Both the position numbers and the translations under genes were made by a program. A stretch of 64,000 bases of DNA from Patiriisocius marinistellae (GTDB taxonomy: Bacteria; Bacteroidota; Bacteroidia; Flavobacteriales; Flavobacteriaceae), in NCBI RefSeq assembly GCF_009014635.1, contig NZ_BKCF01000007.1:1-64000 (forward strand), given 5' to 3'. The stretch's first letter is position 1. Each line of letters opens with the position of its first letter. Shown here one piece after another: positions 17,865 to 25,806 of this stretch. Under the pieces are notes generated by a model. That model was not told where the DNA came from, made no database searches, and was given only the letters and a program-made list of their open reading frames with translations.

Positions 17865-18626
17865 CTAACGAATTGATTTAATGAATTTTTTAATGCCCTT
17901 AAAACCTTCGTTAGATAACATTTTTATAAATGCACTACCTATAATTGCTCCTTTTGCATATTTTGTTGCAGAGTTAAAAGTGTCTGCATTACTGATTCCA
18001 AAGCCTAAAATCTGGGGGTTATTAAGCTTCATTTCAGAAATACGTTTAAAATAATCTTTAGTGCTTTTTCCAAAACCATGAGTTCCACCAGTCACACTGG
18101 CACTGCTCACCATGTAAATGAATCCATTTGAAACTGAATCTATTTCTTTTATACGATCATTACTTGTTTGTGGTGTGATTAAAAATACATTGATTAGGCC
18201 ATAGTTTTCAAAAATTTCTTGATAATGTTCTTTATATTCAGCGACGGGTAAGTCTGGTAAGATCAAACCATCAATTCCTATTTCTTGACATTTTTTGCAA
18301 AAGTCTTCAACGCCATATTGTAATACAGGATTAAAATAGCCCATTAAGACTAATGGAATATCTATTTTTTTTCGAATATCCTTTAATTGATTAAAAAGTA
18401 GTTGAGTAGTCATTCCATTTTTTAATGCTTGCGTTGAGCTAGCTTGAATTGTAGGTCCATCTGCAAGTGGGTCGCTAAAAGGCAGCCCAATTTCAACCAT
18501 ATCAACACCACTTTCTTGTAATGCTTCTAGCACGGAAACTGTGTCATCAATTGAAGGATAGCCAGCTGTGAAATAAATGGATAGTATTTTTTTATTTTCT
18601 TTTAATTTTTCTGAAATTCTATTCAT
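17865..18626 (-). CDS. trpA: Tryptophan synthase alpha chain
   Basis: Cleaves indole-3-glycerol phosphate to indole, which passes to TrpB. 253 aa from MNRISEKLKE; an upstream in-frame ATG at 18644 would add six residues not typical of the family. TIM-barrel markers are visible: YFTAGYPS, VEIGLPFSDPLADGPTIQ with the catalytic Glu and Asp, GLILPDLP, and the phosphate-binding GFGISN. It is the last gene of the trp operon, 94 bases after trpB. Confidence 0.97.
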   Translation of the reverse strand: MNRISEKLKENKKILSIYFTAGYPSIDDTVSVLEALQESGVDMVEIGLPFSDPLADGPTIQASSTQALKNGMTTQLLFNQLKDIRKKIDIPLVLMGYFNPVLQYGVEDFCKKCQEIGIDGLILPDLPVAEYKEHYQEIFENYGLINVFLITPQTSNDRIKEIDSVSNGFIYMVSSASVTGGTHGFGKSTKDYFKRISEMKLNNPQILGFGISNADTFNSATKYAKGAIIGSAFIKMLSNEGFKGIKKFIKSIR

Positions 18627-18720
18627 TGTATAGATTTTAAACACGTGATTTCCTATTGCTATATTTTAAAAAAAGATTCCGATAGTAGTCAAACGTACCT
18701 TTGTTTTAAATTTTAAAATA

Positions 18721-19902
18721 TTATAAATTAAAATAATCAATGTAGGTATTTAAGTCTTTATCGCCACGACCACTTAAATTAACGACAACAATATCACTAG
18801 GTTTAAATTTTCTAGTTTCAAAAATGGCAAGGGCGTGACTTGTTTCAATTGCTGGTATAATGCCTTCGAGTTTGCTTAATTGTATTCCAGCATTCATTGC
18901 ATCATCATCAGTGACCGAAATAAACTCCCCACGACCACTAGCAAATAAATGGGCATGCATTGGGCCAACTCCTGGATAGTCTAATCCAGCCGAAATTGAA
19001 TAAGGCTCAGTAATTTGCCCATCCGGGGTTTGCATCAATAATGTTTTGCTTCCGTGAATAATCCCTATTTTACCTAGCGCTGAGGTTGCAGCGCTTTCTC
19101 CAGAGTTAACTCCTTTACCAGCTGCTTCGACTGCTATTATTCCTACTTCTGGAGTATCTAAATAATGATAATAAGCACCTGCGGCATTACTTCCACCACC
19201 TACACATGCAATAATAAAGTCCGGATTTTCATGCCCTTCTTTTTCTAGTAATTGACTCTTAATTTCAGAAGAAATAACACTTTGAAACCTCGCAACCATA
19301 TCTGGATAGGGATGAGGTCCTACGACGCTACCTATAATATAATGTGTGTCTGCTGGGTTATTTATCCAGTCTCTAATAGCTTCGTTCGTTGCGTCTTTTA
19401 AAGTTTTGCTACCGCTAATGGCTGGAACTACTTTTGCGCCCAGCATTTTCATTCTTGCTACATTAGGCGCTTGTCGCTCGATATCAATCGCGCCCATATA
19501 TACAATACATTCTAACCCCATTAAAGCACAGACAGTTGCAGTTGCAACACCGTGTTGTCCTGCTCCAGTTTCGGCAATAATTCGTTTTTTGCCTAAACGT
19601 TGCGCCATTAAAATTTGTCCTATAGTATTATTTACTTTATGCGCTCCAGTGTGACATAAATCTTCTCGCTTTAAGTAGATTTTTGTATTATGTTTTTCTG
19701 AAAGCCTCTTGGCAAAATAAAGGGGTGTAGGGCGCCCCACATATTCTTTTAATAAAGCATTAAACTCTTTTTGAAAAGAAGGTTCTTGCATAATTGAGAT
19801 GTACTGCTGGCGTAACTCCTCCACATTAGGGTATAGCATTTCGGGGATGTAAGCACCACCAAATTCGCCATAATAGCCTTTATCGTTTACATTGTATTTC
19901 AT
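18721..19902 (-). CDS. trpB: Tryptophan synthase beta chain
   Basis: PLP-dependent condensation of indole with serine. 393 aa, full length. The PLP lysine lies in HTGAHKVNN (Lys89). Also visible are [10 protein letters not shown], the glycine-rich phosphate loop GGGSNAAG and the C-terminal NLSGRGDKD. It sits between trpF (70 bases upstream) and trpA. Confidence 0.98.
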
Positions 19903-19972
19903 AGCTTTTTATTATACTTCAATAAATTTAAGTTGACAAAGTATCCTAATCATTATAAATTTTACCGAAGAA

Positions 19973-20611
19973 TTATTTAAGTTCTTCTATTAATTTTTTT
20001 AAGGCCAAAATGTCTTTTAACCCAGGTTTTAATTCAAATTTACTATTCACATCAATCCCATAAATGGGTAATGAGGATTTCTGAATTTTTTTTACTTCCG
20101 AAATTTCTGCTAACCCTATTCCACCACTTAAAATAAAAGGTGTTGTTGACGGATAATTTTCTAAAACAGACCAGTCAAAAGTAACTCCATTTCCACCTTT
20201 TTCTTTTCCTTTAGTATCAAACAAAAATTTTGAAACTAGATTTTCAAAACTTTCTAAAACCGAAAAGTCAAAAGTGTTTTTTATTGAAAACACCTTCCAT
20301 ATTTCTACCTCTTCTTTTTCAATTTTTTTCAAATTTAAATTAAGCAACGCCACAAATTTATTAGTTTGATTTCCGTGTAGTTGAATAATATCAAAATTAA
20401 ATTTGTGCGCAAGTTCAATGATTTCCGTGACAGATTGATCAACAAAAACTCCCACTTTTTTTATTCCTTTTGATAGTTTTATTACTTCAGACTCATTGTA
20501 ATTTCTAGGACTATTTCCGTAGAAAATGAATCCTAAATAATCAGGATGTAATGCTGCTATTTCAGCAACATTGTGTTTCATACCACATATTTTAATTTTT
20601 AAATCAATCAT
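19973..20611 (-). CDS. trpF: Phosphoribosylanthranilate isomerase
   Basis: Third step of tryptophan synthesis (Amadori rearrangement). 212 aa, TIM barrel: KICGMKH at the N-terminus holds the catalytic Cys, GFIFYGNSPRN follows, then QLHGNQ and the late FILSGGIG. It overlaps the trpC stop by four bases, so translation is coupled. The gene is separate from trpC, unlike the fusion in enterics. Confidence 0.95.
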   Translation of the reverse strand: MIDLKIKICGMKHNVAEIAALHPDYLGFIFYGNSPRNYNESEVIKLSKGIKKVGVFVDQSVTEIIELAHKFNFDIIQLHGNQTNKFVALLNLNLKKIEKEEVEIWKVFSIKNTFDFSVLESFENLVSKFLFDTKGKEKGGNGVTFDWSVLENYPSTTPFILSGGIGLAEISEVKKIQKSSLPIYGIDVNSKFELKPGLKDILALKKLIEELK

Positions 20612-21387
20612 AATTGTTTGATGAATTTCAATGCGCTTTGACCAGGATTTTCAGTTTTCATAAAATTTTCTCCTATCAAAAAACCTTGAAAGCCATATTG
20701 TTTTAATTCATTAATAGTATCAACACTAGAAATTCCACTTTCAGAAACCTTGACAAAATCGGTAGGGATTTTTGAAGAAAGTTCTTTACTAATATCTATT
20801 GAAACTTTAAAAGTTTTTAAATTTCTATTATTAACTCCAAGCATATCTACAGTTGGAATGATTGATTTATTTAATTCTTCTTCATTATGGACTTCTAATA
20901 AAACATCTAGTGAAAGTGACTTTGCAATTGCTGAGTATTCTTTTAATTGACTTTCTGTTAAGGCGGCTGCAATTAAAAGTATTGCATCAGCACCATATGC
21001 TTTTGCTTCATAGATTTGATATGCGTCCACGATAAATTCTTTTCTCAATAATGGAAACTCAACTACATTACGGGCAACTAAAAGATCATCTAATGAGCCG
21101 CCAAAAAAATTAGTATCGGTTAAAATAGACATTCCACTTACTCCAGCATTTTGATATCCTTGAGCAACATCTGTAATTAATACTTTATCATTTATTACAG
21201 ATTTGCTGGGCGAGCGTCTTTTATGTTCAGCAATTATTCCAGAACTAGAAGTTTTTAATGCCTCTGCTAGTGATTTAGTTTCTCTCAAAAAAAGAGCTGA
21301 TTGTTTTAATACTGAAATAGGGAATGTAGCTTTCTTTGCTTTTACTTCTTTATGCTTGTAAGCAATAATTTTATCTAATATTGTCAT
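20608..21387 (-). CDS. trpC: Indole-3-glycerol phosphate synthase
   Basis: Ring closure of the carboxyphenylamino ribulose phosphate. 259 aa, TIM barrel: IIAEHKRRSPSKS carries the phosphate and catalytic lysine region, followed by LRKEFIVDAYQI, LGVNNRNLKTF and VSESGIS. Overlaps trpF by four bases and starts six bases after trpD. Confidence 0.97.
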   Translation of the reverse strand: MTILDKIIAYKHKEVKAKKATFPISVLKQSALFLRETKSLAEALKTSSSGIIAEHKRRSPSKSVINDKVLITDVAQGYQNAGVSGMSILTDTNFFGGSLDDLLVARNVVEFPLLRKEFIVDAYQIYEAKAYGADAILLIAAALTESQLKEYSAIAKSLSLDVLLEVHNEEELNKSIIPTVDMLGVNNRNLKTFKVSIDISKELSSKIPTDFVKVSESGISSVDTINELKQYGFQGFLIGENFMKTENPGQSALKFIKQL

Positions 21388-21393
21388 TTGTTA

Positions 21394-22383
21394 TTAACTT
21401 AACGCGATTAATGTATTAAGTGATTTTAAAGCACTACCAGAATGTAAAGATTTTTTCGCTTTTTCAATCCCATCACTTAGGTCGCACTTTTCGACTATTG
21501 ATATGGCTGTGCCTGCATTAGCAAAAACTACATTGTTTTGTTCTTTTGTGCCGTTTCCTTTTAAAATATTCATAAAAATTTTAGCAGATTCAGCGACGGT
21601 TTCACCTCCATAAATGTCAGACTGTTTTTGTTTTTCAACTCCAAAATTTTCAGGGTGCAGTACCATTTCAGAAGAATTTGAAAGTATTTTTACATCACCT
21701 GTTAATGAAATTTCATCATAGCCATCCATAGCGTGCACTATGCCGTAATTTTTATCACTTTTTTGATAGAGATAGCCATACATACGCGCCAACTCTAAGT
21801 CGAAAACACCAACTAATTGATTTTTAGGAAATGCTGGGTTTACCATTGGCCCAAGCATGTTAAAAAATGTTTTCACTCCCAACTCACGACGAATAGGAGC
21901 CACGTTTTTCATGGCAGGATGGAAAAGAGGTGCGTGCAAAACACAGATGCCAGCTTTGTCTAAACTCCTTTTTAGAAAGTCCGAATCATTGCTAAATTTA
22001 ATGCCTAAGTGTTCCATTACGTTACTGCTACCGCTAATGGAAGAAACTCCATAATTTCCATGCTTTGTAACTTTAATACCAGCGCCAGCGGTAACAAATG
22101 ATGATACGGTAGATATGTTAAAAGTGTTTTTTCCATCACCGCCTGTACCACATAAGTCAATAGTGTTATATTGGTCAAGATCAACTTTGAGACATAAATC
22201 TAGCAATGCATCTCTAAATCCTTCAAGTTCCTCTAGCGTAACACTTCGCATCATATATACAGTTAAAAATGCGGCTATTTGTGAATTGTTATACTTTCCT
22301 TCGCTAATTGAAACAAGTATTTCTCTTGCTTCCTTTTTGTCAAGATGTTCGTGATTTATGAGTCTGTTTAATATTTGTTTCAT
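21394..22383 (-). CDS. trpD: Anthranilate phosphoribosyltransferase
   Basis: Attaches phosphoribose to anthranilate. 329 aa. The PRPP loop DLCGTGGDGKNTFNIST is clear, then KHGNYGVSS and RRELGVKTFFNMLGPM(V)NP. It is not fused to TrpG. The gap to trpG upstream is 121 bases, with no obvious promoter; trpC follows closely. Confidence 0.97.
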   Translation of the reverse strand: MKQILNRLINHEHLDKKEAREILVSISEGKYNNSQIAAFLTVYMMRSVTLEELEGFRDALLDLCLKVDLDQYNTIDLCGTGGDGKNTFNISTVSSFVTAGAGIKVTKHGNYGVSSISGSSNVMEHLGIKFSNDSDFLKRSLDKAGICVLHAPLFHPAMKNVAPIRRELGVKTFFNMLGPMVNPAFPKNQLVGVFDLELARMYGYLYQKSDKNYGIVHAMDGYDEISLTGDVKILSNSSEMVLHPENFGVEKQKQSDIYGGETVAESAKIFMNILKGNGTKEQNNVVFANAGTAISIVEKCDLSDGIEKAKKSLHSGSALKSLNTLIALS

Positions 22384-22504
22384 TATTTAATGCTGTTTGT
22401 AATACTGTTTTATTTTTAGTCTACACAACGCAGGTTTCTTTAACCGCATAGGCTATTCTCAAATTAATTGCTTAGTTTTCCACTAATGCTCAACTTGAAA
22501 AATT

Positions 22505-23071
22505 TTATAACTTAACCCAATTTTTAATCATCAATTTTCCTTGCGGTGTTAAAACGCTTTCTGGATGAAATTGTACACCTCGTATATCAAACTCACGATG
22601 GCGTATTGACATTATTTGTCCGTTTTCGTCAATTGATGTTATTTCTAAAGCTGGTGGAAAACCCTCTTGACTGATAACCCATGAATGATAACGGCCTATT
22701 TCAAACGTTGTATCGATATCATTAAAAAGCGCTTCGTCTATTACAAGCTGAGTTGCTTGTGTAGAAACACCATGAAATACCTCGCTGAGATTTGAGAGTG
22801 TGCCACCAAAAACTTCGCCAATAGCTTGTTGTCCTAAACAGACACCTAAAATAGGTTTTTTGCCAGCATACATTTTTATTACTTCTTTTAAAAGTCCAGC
22901 TTCATCAGGAATACCTGGACCAGGAGACAGTACAATTTTATCGTATTGTTCTGGTAGCTCAATGTCAAATTTGTCATTACGAATTACATGCACTTCGCAA
23001 TCAAATTCTTCTAAATAATGAACAAGGTTGTACACAAAACTATCGTAGTTATCTATTACTAATATTTTCAT
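22505..23071 (-). CDS. trpG: Anthranilate synthase, glutamine amidotransferase subunit
   Basis: Supplies ammonia from glutamine to TrpE. 188 aa class I glutamine amidotransferase: nucleophile loop GVCLGQQAIGE and the C-terminal catalytic His and Glu in VQFHPESVL. The N-terminus MKILVIDNYDSFVYN is typical. Separate gene, 75 bases after trpE. In some bacteria such a subunit also serves folate synthesis; I see no pab gene here. Confidence 0.96.
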   Translation of the reverse strand: MKILVIDNYDSFVYNLVHYLEEFDCEVHVIRNDKFDIELPEQYDKIVLSPGPGIPDEAGLLKEVIKMYAGKKPILGVCLGQQAIGEVFGGTLSNLSEVFHGVSTQATQLVIDEALFNDIDTTFEIGRYHSWVISQEGFPPALEITSIDENGQIMSIRHREFDIRGVQFHPESVLTPQGKLMIKNWVKL

Positions 23072-23146: not shown

Positions 23147-24556
23147 TTAAATTGTTTCTGCTAATTCTAATGCCTTTGTTAATGCTCCTAGCTTATTGTA
23201 CACTTCTTGAAGTTCGTTTTCTGGTTTACTATCATTTACAACTCCAGCACCAGCTTGCCAATGTAACGTGTGATTTTTACTTACAAATGAGCGAATAATA
23301 ATAGCGTGGTTATAATTGCCTTTAAAGTCCATAAACCCAATGGCTCCACCATAAAACTCCCTATTTATATTTTCATATTTTTCTAACAATTGTAGTGCTT
23401 TATGTTTAGGTGCTCCACTTAACGTTCCTGCAGGAAAAGTATCTGCAACAACTTGCATTGTGGGCGTATTTTTATTTTTTGTTGCTGTGACTTTGCTCAC
23501 TAAGTGTATTACATGTGAAAAAAACTGAACTTCTCTGTAAGTGTCTACAGTTACATTAGTTCCATGACGGCTAAGGTCATTTCTGGCAAGATCTACTAGC
23601 ATTACATGTTCACTGTTTTCTTTCTCGTCAACTGAAAGCTGCTTGGCTAGTTCAGCGTCTTGTAAATCGTTTCCTGTTCTTTTAAATGTGCCTGCAATAG
23701 GGTGGATTTCTGCAGTATCTCCTTTTACAACTAATTGTGCTTCTGGTGAACTTCCAAAGATTTTGAAATTTCCGTAATCAAAATAGAATAAATATGGGGA
23801 AGGATTTACGCTGCGTAATGCTCTATACACATTAAATTCATCACCCATAAATGGTTGAGAAAACCTTTTGCTCGGTACAATCTGGAATACATCACCACGA
23901 GCACAATGTGCTTTGCATTTTACAACTAAGTCTTTAAATTCTTCGTCTTTTAAATTTGTTGTTGGTTCTCCGTTTCTGGAAAAAGGGTATTCTGCAAAGT
24001 TTTTTGAATTTATAAGTTGTTCTATTTGCTCAATATTACTTTCTGTATTGTAATTATGAGAAAAAATATAAGCTTCATTGTTAAAATGATTGATAGCAAT
24101 TATGTTTTGATATACCGCATAGTACATATCTGGTATTCCTAATATAGATTTGCTTTTGTCTATTTCAACACTTTCAAAATAGCGTACTGCATCATAACTT
24201 GTATAGCCAAAAAGTCCATTATTTATAAACTTTAAATTAGTCTCTTGTGCTGTAAATGACTCAGAAAATTTTTGGATGATGGCGGGCACATTAGGTGCTG
24301 GTTGTTGAGACGACGACAATTGTATTGTAGTTACGTTTCCGCAGGGAAAATGTTGTGTGATTTCCTCATTTGCTACTTTTATTGACGCGATAGGATTACA
24401 ACAGATATAGCTAAAGCTGTTATCGTTAGCATGATAATCACTACTTTCAAGGAGTAAACTATTAGGGAATTTATCTCGCAAACGTAAGTAAACTGAGACA
24501 GGGGTGAGGGTGTCTGCAAGTAATTTTTTTGAATGCGTTTTTAGTTTGTAATTCAT
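23147..24556 (-). CDS. trpE: Anthranilate synthase component I
   Basis: Makes anthranilate from chorismate. 469 aa with the chorismate-binding domain in the C-terminal half: FQIVPSKRFSQPF, GSSPEAQL, HPIAGTFKRTG, ENSEHVMLVDLARND, FPAGTLSGAPK and the terminal QAGAGVVNDS. The N-terminal half has an LLESSDYH stretch near the position of the Trp feedback site. It is the first structural gene of the trp operon and lies 45 bases after an attenuator hairpin and leader peptide, so transcription attenuation by tryptophan supply is strongly suggested. Confidence 0.97.
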   Translation of the reverse strand: MNYKLKTHSKKLLADTLTPVSVYLRLRDKFPNSLLLESSDYHANDNSFSYICCNPIASIKVANEEITQHFPCGNVTTIQLSSSQQPAPNVPAIIQKFSESFTAQETNLKFINNGLFGYTSYDAVRYFESVEIDKSKSILGIPDMYYAVYQNIIAINHFNNEAYIFSHNYNTESNIEQIEQLINSKNFAEYPFSRNGEPTTNLKDEEFKDLVVKCKAHCARGDVFQIVPSKRFSQPFMGDEFNVYRALRSVNPSPYLFYFDYGNFKIFGSSPEAQLVVKGDTAEIHPIAGTFKRTGNDLQDAELAKQLSVDEKENSEHVMLVDLARNDLSRHGTNVTVDTYREVQFFSHVIHLVSKVTATKNKNTPTMQVVADTFPAGTLSGAPKHKALQLLEKYENINREFYGGAIGFMDFKGNYNHAIIIRSFVSKNHTLHWQAGAGVVNDSKPENELQEVYNKLGALTKALELAETI

Positions 24557-24600
24557 TGTTTGTTTTTTCTCTTGTTACTTTAATCCTGCATTTGCGGAAA

Positions 24601-24632
24601 TAAAAAAAGCCTGTCTCGTGAAAGACAGGCTT
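24601..24632 (-). terminator. trp attenuator hairpin
   Basis: Read on the minus strand: AAGCCTGTCT, loop TTCACG, AGACAGGCTT, then a T run. This is a perfect ten-base-pair stem between the trpL stop and trpE. The loop TTCACG (minus strand; 24617-24622) is complementary to CGTGAA at the 3' end of the leader peptide frame (24659-24664). It could thus pair in an alternative anti-terminator. Terminator certain, alternative pairing inferred. Confidence 0.88.
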
Positions 24633-24654
24633 ATATGTTATATATAATGATGAC

Positions 24655-24714
24655 CTAGTTCACGGACGTTGTCTGTAAATTATTCCACCACCAATTGTTT
24701 TGTGTTGTTCTCAT
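24655..24714 (-). CDS. trpL: trp operon leader peptide
   Basis: A 19-codon frame whose peptide is MRTTQNNWWWNNLQTTSVN. Three adjacent Trp codons lie at 24685-24693. It precedes a Rho-independent hairpin and trpE, the classical layout of ribosome-mediated attenuation: stalling at TGG codons when charged tRNA-Trp is scarce would favour anti-termination. The promoter element just upstream leaves almost no leader before the ATG. Recognised by layout and codon content, not by similarity to enteric TrpL. Confidence 0.85.
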   Translation of the reverse strand: MRTTQNNWWWNNLQTTSVN

Positions 24715-24722
24715 TATTGCTT

Positions 24723-24730
24723 CAAAGATA
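24723..24730 (-). promoter_or_regulatory. Putative -7 element (TATCTTTG) of the trp operon
   Basis: Matches TAnnTTTG on the minus strand, eight bases before the trpL ATG. The mRNA would start within a few bases of the start codon, making trpL nearly leaderless. Confidence 0.55.
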
Positions 24731-24731
24731 G

Positions 24732-24763
24732 AAAAGTTATCCAATATTGAAAACATAACTTTT
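24732..24763 (-). promoter_or_regulatory. Inverted repeat upstream of the trp promoter
   Basis: AAAAGTTAT (24732-24740) and ATAACTTTT (24755-24763) form a perfect nine-base inverted repeat, 14 bases apart. It follows the YceI gene stop (24771) on the minus strand and overlaps the -33 region of the trp promoter. It may be the YceI/MarR terminator, an operator for the trp operon, or both. Confidence 0.4.
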
Positions 24764-24770
24764 TTTTAAT

Positions 24771-25340
24771 TTAAAACTTTAACGTTACATTAAGGTCAAA
24801 ATTATCACTAATAGTATTGTCTCCTAAGTTATCGAAAAAACTACCAGAACCGTAACGAACTCCGTATTTTGTACGGTCAATTTTTAGTGATGTTGTTGCT
24901 TGATTATCTTCCATCTTTAAATCAAAAGTTATAGGCTCAGTAGTTTCTTTAATAGTCATATTTCCAGTTACTTTATAACCTCCATTCATCGCTTTAACAC
25001 TAGTAAATACTAAAGTTGCAGTTGGGTGATTATCTGTGCCAAAAAAGTCTTCACTCTTTAAATGGCCTTCTAATTTTTCTTTTCCTTCTCCAGCTTTTAA
25101 ATCTGTTACATTAATGCTGGTCATATCTACGACAAACATTCCTCCAGTTAATGTTGATCCTTCCATTTCTAAGGAGCCTTCCTTTAAATTTATAGTTCCT
25201 GTGTGAGATCCTAATACTTTTTTACCGGTCCACTCGATTGTGCTTTCTGAAACACTTATTTTTTTCATAGTATTGTTTGTAAATGCAGTTGCTCCCACGG
25301 CTACTGCTAAGATTAAAATTGATTTTACTGCTGTTTTCAT
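24771..25340 (-). CDS. YceI-family periplasmic lipocalin-like protein
   Basis: 189 aa with a signal peptide (cleavage near TAFT) and the YceI beta-barrel fold. Typical stretches are IEWTGKKVLGSHTGTI, the middle LKSEDFFGTDNHPTATLVF and the C-terminal ISDNFDLNVTLKF. YceI proteins bind polyisoprenoid or other hydrophobic ligands and are often induced by stress. It follows a MarR gene by four bases, so both are in one operon under the palindromic operator at 25811-25837. Confidence 0.92.
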   Translation of the reverse strand: MKTAVKSILILAVAVGATAFTNNTMKKISVSESTIEWTGKKVLGSHTGTINLKEGSLEMEGSTLTGGMFVVDMTSINVTDLKAGEGKEKLEGHLKSEDFFGTDNHPTATLVFTSVKAMNGGYKVTGNMTIKETTEPITFDLKMEDNQATTSLKIDRTKYGVRYGSGSFFDNLGDNTISDNFDLNVTLKF

Positions 25341-25344
25341 AGTT

Positions 25345-25806
25345 TTAATTTTTAAAAGTCCTTAGTTTATCTAATAGGTTATTAAGTTGCTCGAGTTCAT
25401 TAGCGTCAAGCGCGCTGGTAATTTTTTCGTTATTATTTTGAGTAATAGGATCTAGGGTTGTTAAAAGAGAAAGACCTTCTTTAGTAATAAAAAGCTCAAT
25501 TTTTCTTCTATTAGATGCGCAAACCCTCCTTGTGACAAGATCTTTTTTAATTAGTTTGTCAATCAAGCGAGTAGTATTACTATTCCTATCAACCATGCGT
25601 TCTTGAATGGTTGATAGGTTTGCGGGGTTTCCTTTTTGTCCTCTTAAAATTCGTAGAACATTAAATTGTTGTGGAGTTATATCATGTGGTTTTAATATTT
25701 CTAAAAAAGATTCTTCCATAATACGACTTGTATACGCCACATTTATTGCCGTTTTTGTGGCAATGTTCATTTTGTGATTTGTCTGTATTGCTTGTTCTAT
25801 ATTCAT
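25345..25806 (-). CDS. MarR-family transcriptional regulator
   Basis: 153 aa, winged helix: helix-turn-helix region ITPQQFNVLRILRG, then NLSTIQERMVDRNSNTTRLIDKL with the recognition helix, and the wing around VCASNRRKIELFITKEG. Such proteins repress their own operon and are released by small ligands or oxidation; one Cys (in RRVCASN) lies in the wing region. Two copies of a perfect dyad directly upstream of its ATG are the likely autoregulatory operators. YceI is the cotranscribed target. Confidence 0.92.
   Translation of the reverse strand: MNIEQAIQTNHKMNIATKTAINVAYTSRIMEESFLEILKPHDITPQQFNVLRILRGQKGNPANLSTIQERMVDRNSNTTRLIDKLIKKDLVTRRVCASNRRKIELFITKEGLSLLTTLDPITQNNNEKITSALDANELEQLNNLLDKLRTFKN

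Follow-up and report, generated by a model that had tools for sequence, protein, structure and literature searches.

A divergent Bacteroid-trp leader before the trp operon of Patiriisocius marinistellae: a predicted ribosome-mediated attenuator with a candidate loop-capturing antiterminator and a predicted short 5' end

The tryptophan operon of the flavobacterium Patiriisocius marinistellae is preceded by a short reading frame with consecutive Trp codons and by a hairpin, which raises the question of whether transcription of the operon is governed by a ribosome-mediated attenuator and, if so, whether such an attenuator is new. A previous sequence-only reading of this DNA had proposed the former and implied the latter. 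The window, that is, the whole stretch of DNA analysed (64,000 nucleotides), carries the operon on its minus strand, in the order trpEGDCFBA. The first gene of the putatively controlled operon, trpE (23147..24556), has TIGR00564 as its best NCBIfam match, at 418 bits against a curated cut-off of 518. It is followed by the ORFs of trpG, trpD, trpC, trpF, trpB and trpA (17865..23071, minus strand), among which trpG, trpD and trpC pass NCBIfam cut-offs, the best matches of trpF are under the cut-off, and trpB (18721-19902) and trpA (17865-18644) were identified by eye from their translations. Genes of a YceI-like and a MarR-family protein lie directly upstream of the leader on the same strand (24771-25806, minus); YceI-like ORFs upstream of the leader were also seen by eye in four related loci (L146, L148, L153 and L175).

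The leader ORF, trpL (MRTTQNNWWWNNLQTTSVN, 24655..24714, minus strand), comprises 19 codons and a TAG, with its ATG at 24714 and its stop codon at 24655, and has homologous leaders in relatives; its three Trp codons and its position before trpE are as the sequence-only reading had described them. A longer ORF from an in-frame ATG at 24756 was rejected as the leader, since this start precedes the promoter, whose -7 box (TATCTTTG, 24723..24730, minus strand, consensus TAnnTTTG) leads to a predicted transcription start at about 24718. The TGG TGG TGG run (24685..24693, minus strand) is the predicted stall site; when the untranslated RNA is folded, it also supplies the 5' strand of an outer 1:2 helix, paired with 24653-24645. 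Segment 1 (UUUAC, 24675..24679, minus strand) is weakly suggested by folding as an anti-antiterminator, its partner being the GUGAA of segment 2. Segment 2 itself (GUCCGUGAA, 24659..24667, minus strand) lies within the end of the leader ORF and, from complementarity and folding, may pair with either segment 1 or segment 3. Segment 3 (UUCACGAGAC, 24613..24622, minus strand), the putative antiterminator partner of segment 2, consists of the terminator loop and the start of its 3' arm. Finally, the predicted intrinsic terminator AAGCCTGTC-TTTCACGA-GACAGGCTT, followed by the T run (24601..24632, minus strand), has a GC-rich stem at 24632-24607; folding, covariation and a pattern scan all point to it, in agreement with the stem-loop reported earlier. 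The complementarity noticed in that reading is also present, between CGTGAA (24664-24659) and TTCACG (24622-24617) in the terminator loop, and one bulged A lets the window pairing extend (GTC-CGTGAA with TTCACG-A-GAC). As a whole, the region 24596-24716 folds at -29.6 kcal/mol, better than 200 of 200 dinucleotide shuffles (z = -4.0).

An element of this kind is already catalogued. The Bacteroid-trp motif was published in 2010 as a cis-regulatory motif of Bacteroidetes (Weinberg et al., PMC2864571), and it was named ahead of the trp operon of F. psychrophilum in 2019 (PMC6414381). The corresponding Rfam model, RF01692, aligns to the window leader over model positions 1-131 of 131, scoring 35 bits; as the cut-off is 49, the leader is not a member by Rfam's rule, and it is a homologue by position and alignment. 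The RF01692 search of the own genome reported no match. Among 149 genomes of the window's bacterial family, 108 gave matches, 94 of them with a match above the cut-off, including a genome of the same genus (G076, 64.2 bits), and the genome of the window is one of the 41 with none, so that a missing match does not mean a missing leader. Of the 30 best loci in the family, 29 precede a trpE-like frame and one ends at the end of its contig. In a sample of the phylum, the model matched 29 of 296 genomes, 27 of which belong to the window's own family. From the end-to-end alignment below the cut-off and the family-wide matches it follows that, as judged from sequence, the window element is a divergent homologue of the catalogued element, and thus of a known type.

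In order to follow the leader across relatives, loci were collected through TrpE, and the best 80 of at least 585 named loci were kept, 81 with the window. In 72 of these 81, a leader that starts with ATG and carries two or more Trp codons in tandem lies no further than 450 nt from trpE. Among the other nine, an inserted ORF separates the leader from trpE in five, at a distance of 470-567 nt, a TTG occupies the start position of the leader in two, and two are contig edges. Thus, a Trp-codon leader was found in 78 of the 80 best named loci (of at least 585), and, because the remaining two (L140 and L180) are contig edges with 165-168 bases upstream, no close-relative locus in this set with enough DNA was without one. 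The distance between the ATG and the first TGG was 24 nt in 63 of the 72 leaders (best-80 set and window), 21 nt in eight and 15 nt in one; the window leader is among the eight, its Trp run lying one codon earlier than in most relatives.

Several side observations were made in this collection. Two leaders (L171 and L194) lack an in-frame ATG ahead of the Trp codons, and a TTG is seen by eye near the usual start, which suggests, from the sequence, non-ATG initiation. In five of the best 80 loci (L146, L148, L153, L175 and L177: three Salegentibacter, one uncultured Flavobacteriaceae and one Muricauda), an ORF of 71-98 aa stands between the attenuator terminator and trpE; both of the two tested (L146 and L177) match GIY-YIG (PF01541), and the remaining three are similar by eye. 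Moreover, among ten further genomes of the genus that were searched, six (G150, G151, G153, G154, G155 and G157) have only distant trpE relatives, of 24-31% identity; these six genomes are of about 1.7-2.1 Mb and 77-90% complete, and a loss of tryptophan synthesis is possible in them.

The earlier reading had also placed a Bacteroidota promoter so close to trpL that the leader peptide would be almost leaderless, with a possible effect on the loading of the first ribosome. In F. johnsoniae, start sites were reported 4-5 nt after the -7 element (PMC6847099), and in F. psychrophilum the -7 box was placed at -12 to -5 (PMC9723704). With the published spacing of 4-5 nt, the +1 predicted for the window lies about 4 nt before the ATG. 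Of the promoter claim, the -7 box and this short predicted distance stand, whereas the -33 position of the window, 19 nt before the box, reads TTT and not TTG. Across the best-80 set with the window, 69 of 72 leaders have an exact TAnnTTTG box ahead of their ATG and three have none; among the 69 a TTG precedes the box by 19 nt in 38 and by 20 nt in 17, in support of the promoter. For these 69, the predicted length of the 5' leader is 0-3 nt in 37, 4-8 nt in nine and 9-36 nt in 23, being exactly 1 nt in 24, so the near-leaderless placement is borne out, as a prediction, in over half of them.

The length of this 5' leader follows lineage. On a TrpE tree, to which the lengths for L153, L175 and L177 were added manually after reading their sequences, the length classes cluster, with at least eight changes (the fewest) among three classes. 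Predicted lengths are 0 in Aquimarina, 1-2 nt in the Salegentibacter-Gillisia group, 1 nt in the Allomuricauda-Flagellimonas group, and 1-4 nt in Maribacter and Arenibacter, with Pareuzebyella (26 nt) among them; they are mostly 4-8 nt in the window's group (7 of the 10 with a value) and mostly 9-18 nt in the Olleya-Bizionia group, with exceptions at 5 and 36 nt. The short 5' end of trpL is, by the measure of its sequence, real, lineage-dependent and not universal. As for the genome-wide background, the leaderless fraction in F. psychrophilum was given as 5.5% (PMC9723704), while about 13% of 5' leaders are of 10 nt or less in F. johnsoniae (PMC6847099) and about 3.7% are under 10 nt in B. thetaiotaomicron (PMC7366714). 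Leaderless starts were not prominent in the window's own genome, where TAnnTTTG-N4-AATG occurs 35 times and the reversed pattern 27, and TGGTGGTGG is by itself undistinctive (121 occurrences genome-wide, compared with 107 of its reversed form). Only one of the 56 ATG-started ORFs of at least 100 aa in the window has a box that would give 0-3 nt.

The alternative that survives best concerns this 5' end, and holds that the true start lies further upstream, for instance through read-through from marR-yceI. It is compatible with attenuation and incompatible with a short 5' end. Since the yceI and marR genes lie upstream, with yceI adjoining on the same strand, and the pattern scan of the window found nothing resembling a terminator between yceI and the trp promoter, some transcripts could have a long 5' end, and the TTT at -33 of the window also speaks for it. 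Against it stand the exact -7 box with a predicted leader of 0-36 nt in 69 of the 72 leaders of the best-80 set and window, the TTG that precedes this box by 19 or 20 nt in 55 of the 69, and the published distance of 4-5 nt between such boxes and start sites (PMC6847099). Altogether, an upstream start is considered unlikely, and the close promoter remains the preferred reading.

The conservation of the RNA helices was examined at two levels. A 40-row alignment was assembled manually from the named set (best 80 of at least 585) for spread over genera, and is therefore not random. A larger collection joined 71 leaders, namely the 72 above less the one with no detected terminator (L156), to 98 picked with RF01692, giving 169 sequences, 166 of them distinct. 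In the latter pick, L031 and L033 were dropped as duplicates, 12 of the remaining 112 (window included) could not be parsed, and the window and L035 were removed because the named set already contained them. These RF01692-picked leaders provide no independent count of leaders, since they were chosen by the model and TGGTGG was required.

In the 40 rows, 99.5% of the terminator cells are paired, with compensatory changes at six of ten pairs, and this covariation was matched by none of 500 shuffles and by no slid control. With the TGG run and the hairpin conserved across relatives and the hairpin covarying, the alignment proposed in the sequence-only reading has come out in its favour, and a lack of conservation, which would have spoken against it, was not observed. 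As for the proposed antiterminator, UCGUGA at the end of the leader complements UCACGA, which is made up of four loop bases and the first two of the terminator 3' arm. The complementarity between CGTGAA and the loop, noted earlier, belongs to a conserved pairing: 99.2% of the cells of 2:3 are paired in the 40 rows, and at each of two pairs a single row shows a compensatory change. No shuffle equals this; a control slid by +3 exceeds it in covariation score but pairs in only 25% of its cells. The core is nearly invariant, each of its six pairs being present in 159-166 of the 166 sequences, and the covariation is thin.

The sequences which deviate are informative about the core. One or both of its sides are off consensus in 21 of the 166 rows, and seven of these 21 retain the six pairs: three by changes on both sides (L149, UCGUAA/UUACGA; L107, UCGCAA/UUGCGA; L186, UCGUGU/ACACGG) and four via G-U pairs (L023, L060, L099 and L104). 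A further ten retain five pairs, including the window, L131 and L133, and the last four (L088, L103, L132 and L135) retain four, a shifted register looking better by eye. At least six contiguous Watson-Crick pairs between leader and segment 3 were found in 155 of the 169 sequences, against 6.8% of dinucleotide shuffles, a comparison uncorrected for relatedness. The 14 with fewer include the window under the loop boundaries used there; the boundaries of the folding runs give it six. Furthermore, TCAC occurs within the hairpin in 157 of the 169, which would be unusual for an unconstrained terminator loop. A seventh antiterminator pair, in the direction of GUC:GAC, found no support (66 of 166, and 26 of 166 for the next pair), and the base after the core is paired in 81 of 148. 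The inner 1:2 helix (CUUACGA/UCGUGAG) is 71% paired over the 40 relatives, three of its pairs having changed on both strands, and it is only weakly supported because slid versions reach similar covariation. RNAalifold recovered the terminator alone from the whole leader, likely because 1:2 and 2:3 compete with each other and with the terminator.

The behaviour of the switch was modelled by folding the released RNA only, with the ribosome taken to protect 13 nt counted from the first base of the A-site codon. When segment 3 has just emerged, the median predicted probability of 2:3 is 0.95 with a stall at the first, second or third Trp codon (68, 68 and 65 loci, respectively) and 0.14 without a ribosome (68 loci); for the window leader, the values are 0.95-0.96 and 0.32. 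By prediction and by conservation, 2:3 appears to be favoured over its alternative when a ribosome stalls at the Trp codons. Once the full terminator is out, with the stall at the third Trp codon, the terminator reaches a median of 0.96 and 2:3 exceeds 0.5 in two of 65 loci. As equilibrium favours the complete terminator despite the stall, antitermination would therefore have to be kinetic. The persistence of 2:3 could be a matter of geometry: no base separates segment 3 from the rest of the terminator 3' arm, so that for 2:3 and the terminator to exist together a pseudoknot whose loop has zero length would be required. In the absence of a ribosome, 2:3 exceeds 0.5 in 21 of 68 loci, and the untranslated window RNA adopts 2:3 after the emergence of five further bases, which departs from the textbook switch. 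Counted from the start of CGTGA, the stop codon begins 2 nt downstream in 48 of 71 loci, which places it inside segment 2, and 7 nt downstream in 15, immediately past the core; a finishing ribosome would thus cover segment 2 in most loci.

From these elements the following mechanism may be proposed. The polymerase would start a few bases before trpL, and the ribosome would load at or very near the 5' end. With plentiful Trp-tRNA, the ribosome would reach the stop codon and cover segment 2, around UCGUGA, so that the terminator would fold and transcription would stop before trpE. When Trp-tRNA is short, a stall on UGG UGG UGG would disrupt the 1:2 helix, and the freed segment 2 would capture segment 3 on its emergence; the terminator would then form late and the operon would be read. 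Of this scheme, the anatomy, the conservation, the terminator covariation and the conserved 2:3 complementarity are shown by sequence, and the start site, the stalling, the kinetic antitermination and the tryptophan response are inferred. On anatomy and conservation, the element is very probably a ribosome-mediated trp transcription attenuator, as had been suggested, and a divergent relative of the Bacteroid-trp leaders.

The scheme shares with E. coli trpL the tandem Trp codons and the alternative 1:2, 2:3 and terminator helices. Under a near-identical folding procedure, E. coli trpL (L254) also turns to 2:3 upon a stall and shows the same reversal once the terminator is complete; in contrast to the loci mentioned above, it forms no 2:3 at all without a ribosome. 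In E. coli, the terminator 5' arm serves as segment 3, whereas in the window leader it is the loop and the start of the 3' arm. Furthermore, the ATG of E. coli trpL lies about 26 nt from its start site, against a predicted 5' leader of about 4 nt in the window.

Two further explanations bear on attenuation itself. The first is a constitutive or partial terminator, the small ORF being translated with no regulatory role and trp being controlled elsewhere. The equilibrium result agrees with it, in that the complete hairpin favours the terminator even with a stall at the third Trp codon, and does so as well with the ribosome at the stop codon. However, a constitutive terminator needs neither conserved Trp codons, nor a kept ATG-TGG distance (24 nt in 63 of the 72 leaders of the best-80 set and window), nor TCAC in 157 of 169 hairpins, and no TrpR or TRAP match that could provide control elsewhere was found in the genome. 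Control by these regulators was set aside, as neither PF01371 nor PF02081 matched the own genome and the control genomes did match; the whole explanation is very improbable next to ribosome-mediated attenuation. The second explanation, that translation of the leader exposes or hides the trpE start, or affects RNA stability, has in its favour that many structured 5' regions in other systems act via translation or RNA stability, but the terminator and T run are kept across the set with a covarying stem and an ORF of 71-98 aa separates hairpin and trpE in five of the best 80 loci (of at least 585), so that it hardly deserves credence.

With ribosome-mediated attenuation as the preferred reading, the question of novelty can be answered. 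The implied novelty of such a system in a flavobacterium is not supported, in view of the Bacteroid-trp motif (PMC2864571) and of the leaderless trpL known in Sinorhizobium (PMC7298713). In S. meliloti, rnTrpL begins at the trpL ATG and sets the precedent for a leaderless trp attenuator (PMC7298713); the rnTrpL/peTrpL system belongs to another phylum, and its 5' end is reported there, whereas that of the window leader is predicted. Closer to the window, transcriptome and structure data of F. psychrophilum gave in 2021 strong clues of leader-peptide attenuation ahead of amino-acid operons, the same type of mechanism in a related bacterium (PMC9723704); the words trp and tryptophan are absent from the main text of that paper. 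In the literature on Bacteroidetes, Bacteroides and trp attenuation and on Bacteroid-trp, as represented outside most subscription papers and supplements, no experimental test was found, and within the same literature neither a leaderless start nor a loop-capturing antiterminator was described for a Bacteroid-trp leader; PMC11955535 and PMC4833913 proved irrelevant to it.

The window leader resembles RF01692 in its position upstream of trpE in Bacteroidota, its Trp-codon leader and a 1:2 helix through the TGG run. It differs in having a longer terminator loop, and in its terminator and 2:3 antiterminator, both of which are left unpaired in the printed model; there, the TGG region is paired with sequence further downstream. 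As the model stops at the 5' arm of the terminator, the 2:3 antiterminator is an addition to it. Two features may accordingly be put forward beyond the catalogued model, a candidate loop-capturing antiterminator and a predicted lineage-specific near-leaderless start. Whether they add up to a distinct Flavobacteriaceae layout, in which a leaderless or near-leaderless trpL in several lineages is combined with an antiterminator that captures loop and 3' arm, suited to a non-Shine-Dalgarno phylum, is a tentative proposal, to which we give somewhat less than even credit; if true, the ribosome could engage the AUG as soon as it exits the polymerase. The catalogued attenuator family gains a testable antiterminator. 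Moreover, the leaders form a natural set with the same sensor and predicted 5' lengths from 0 to about 18 nt in most, in hosts without Shine-Dalgarno sequences, which could reveal whether attenuation needs a landing zone for the ribosome and how the first ribosome synchronises with the polymerase.

Finally, a leader from the same class and another family (L250) carries only two Trp codons, and its terminator and segment 2 differ in sequence. There, GUUGCAG pairs with CUGCGAC, in the terminator loop and 3' arm, that is, in the same place with another sequence, as seen by eye and post hoc.
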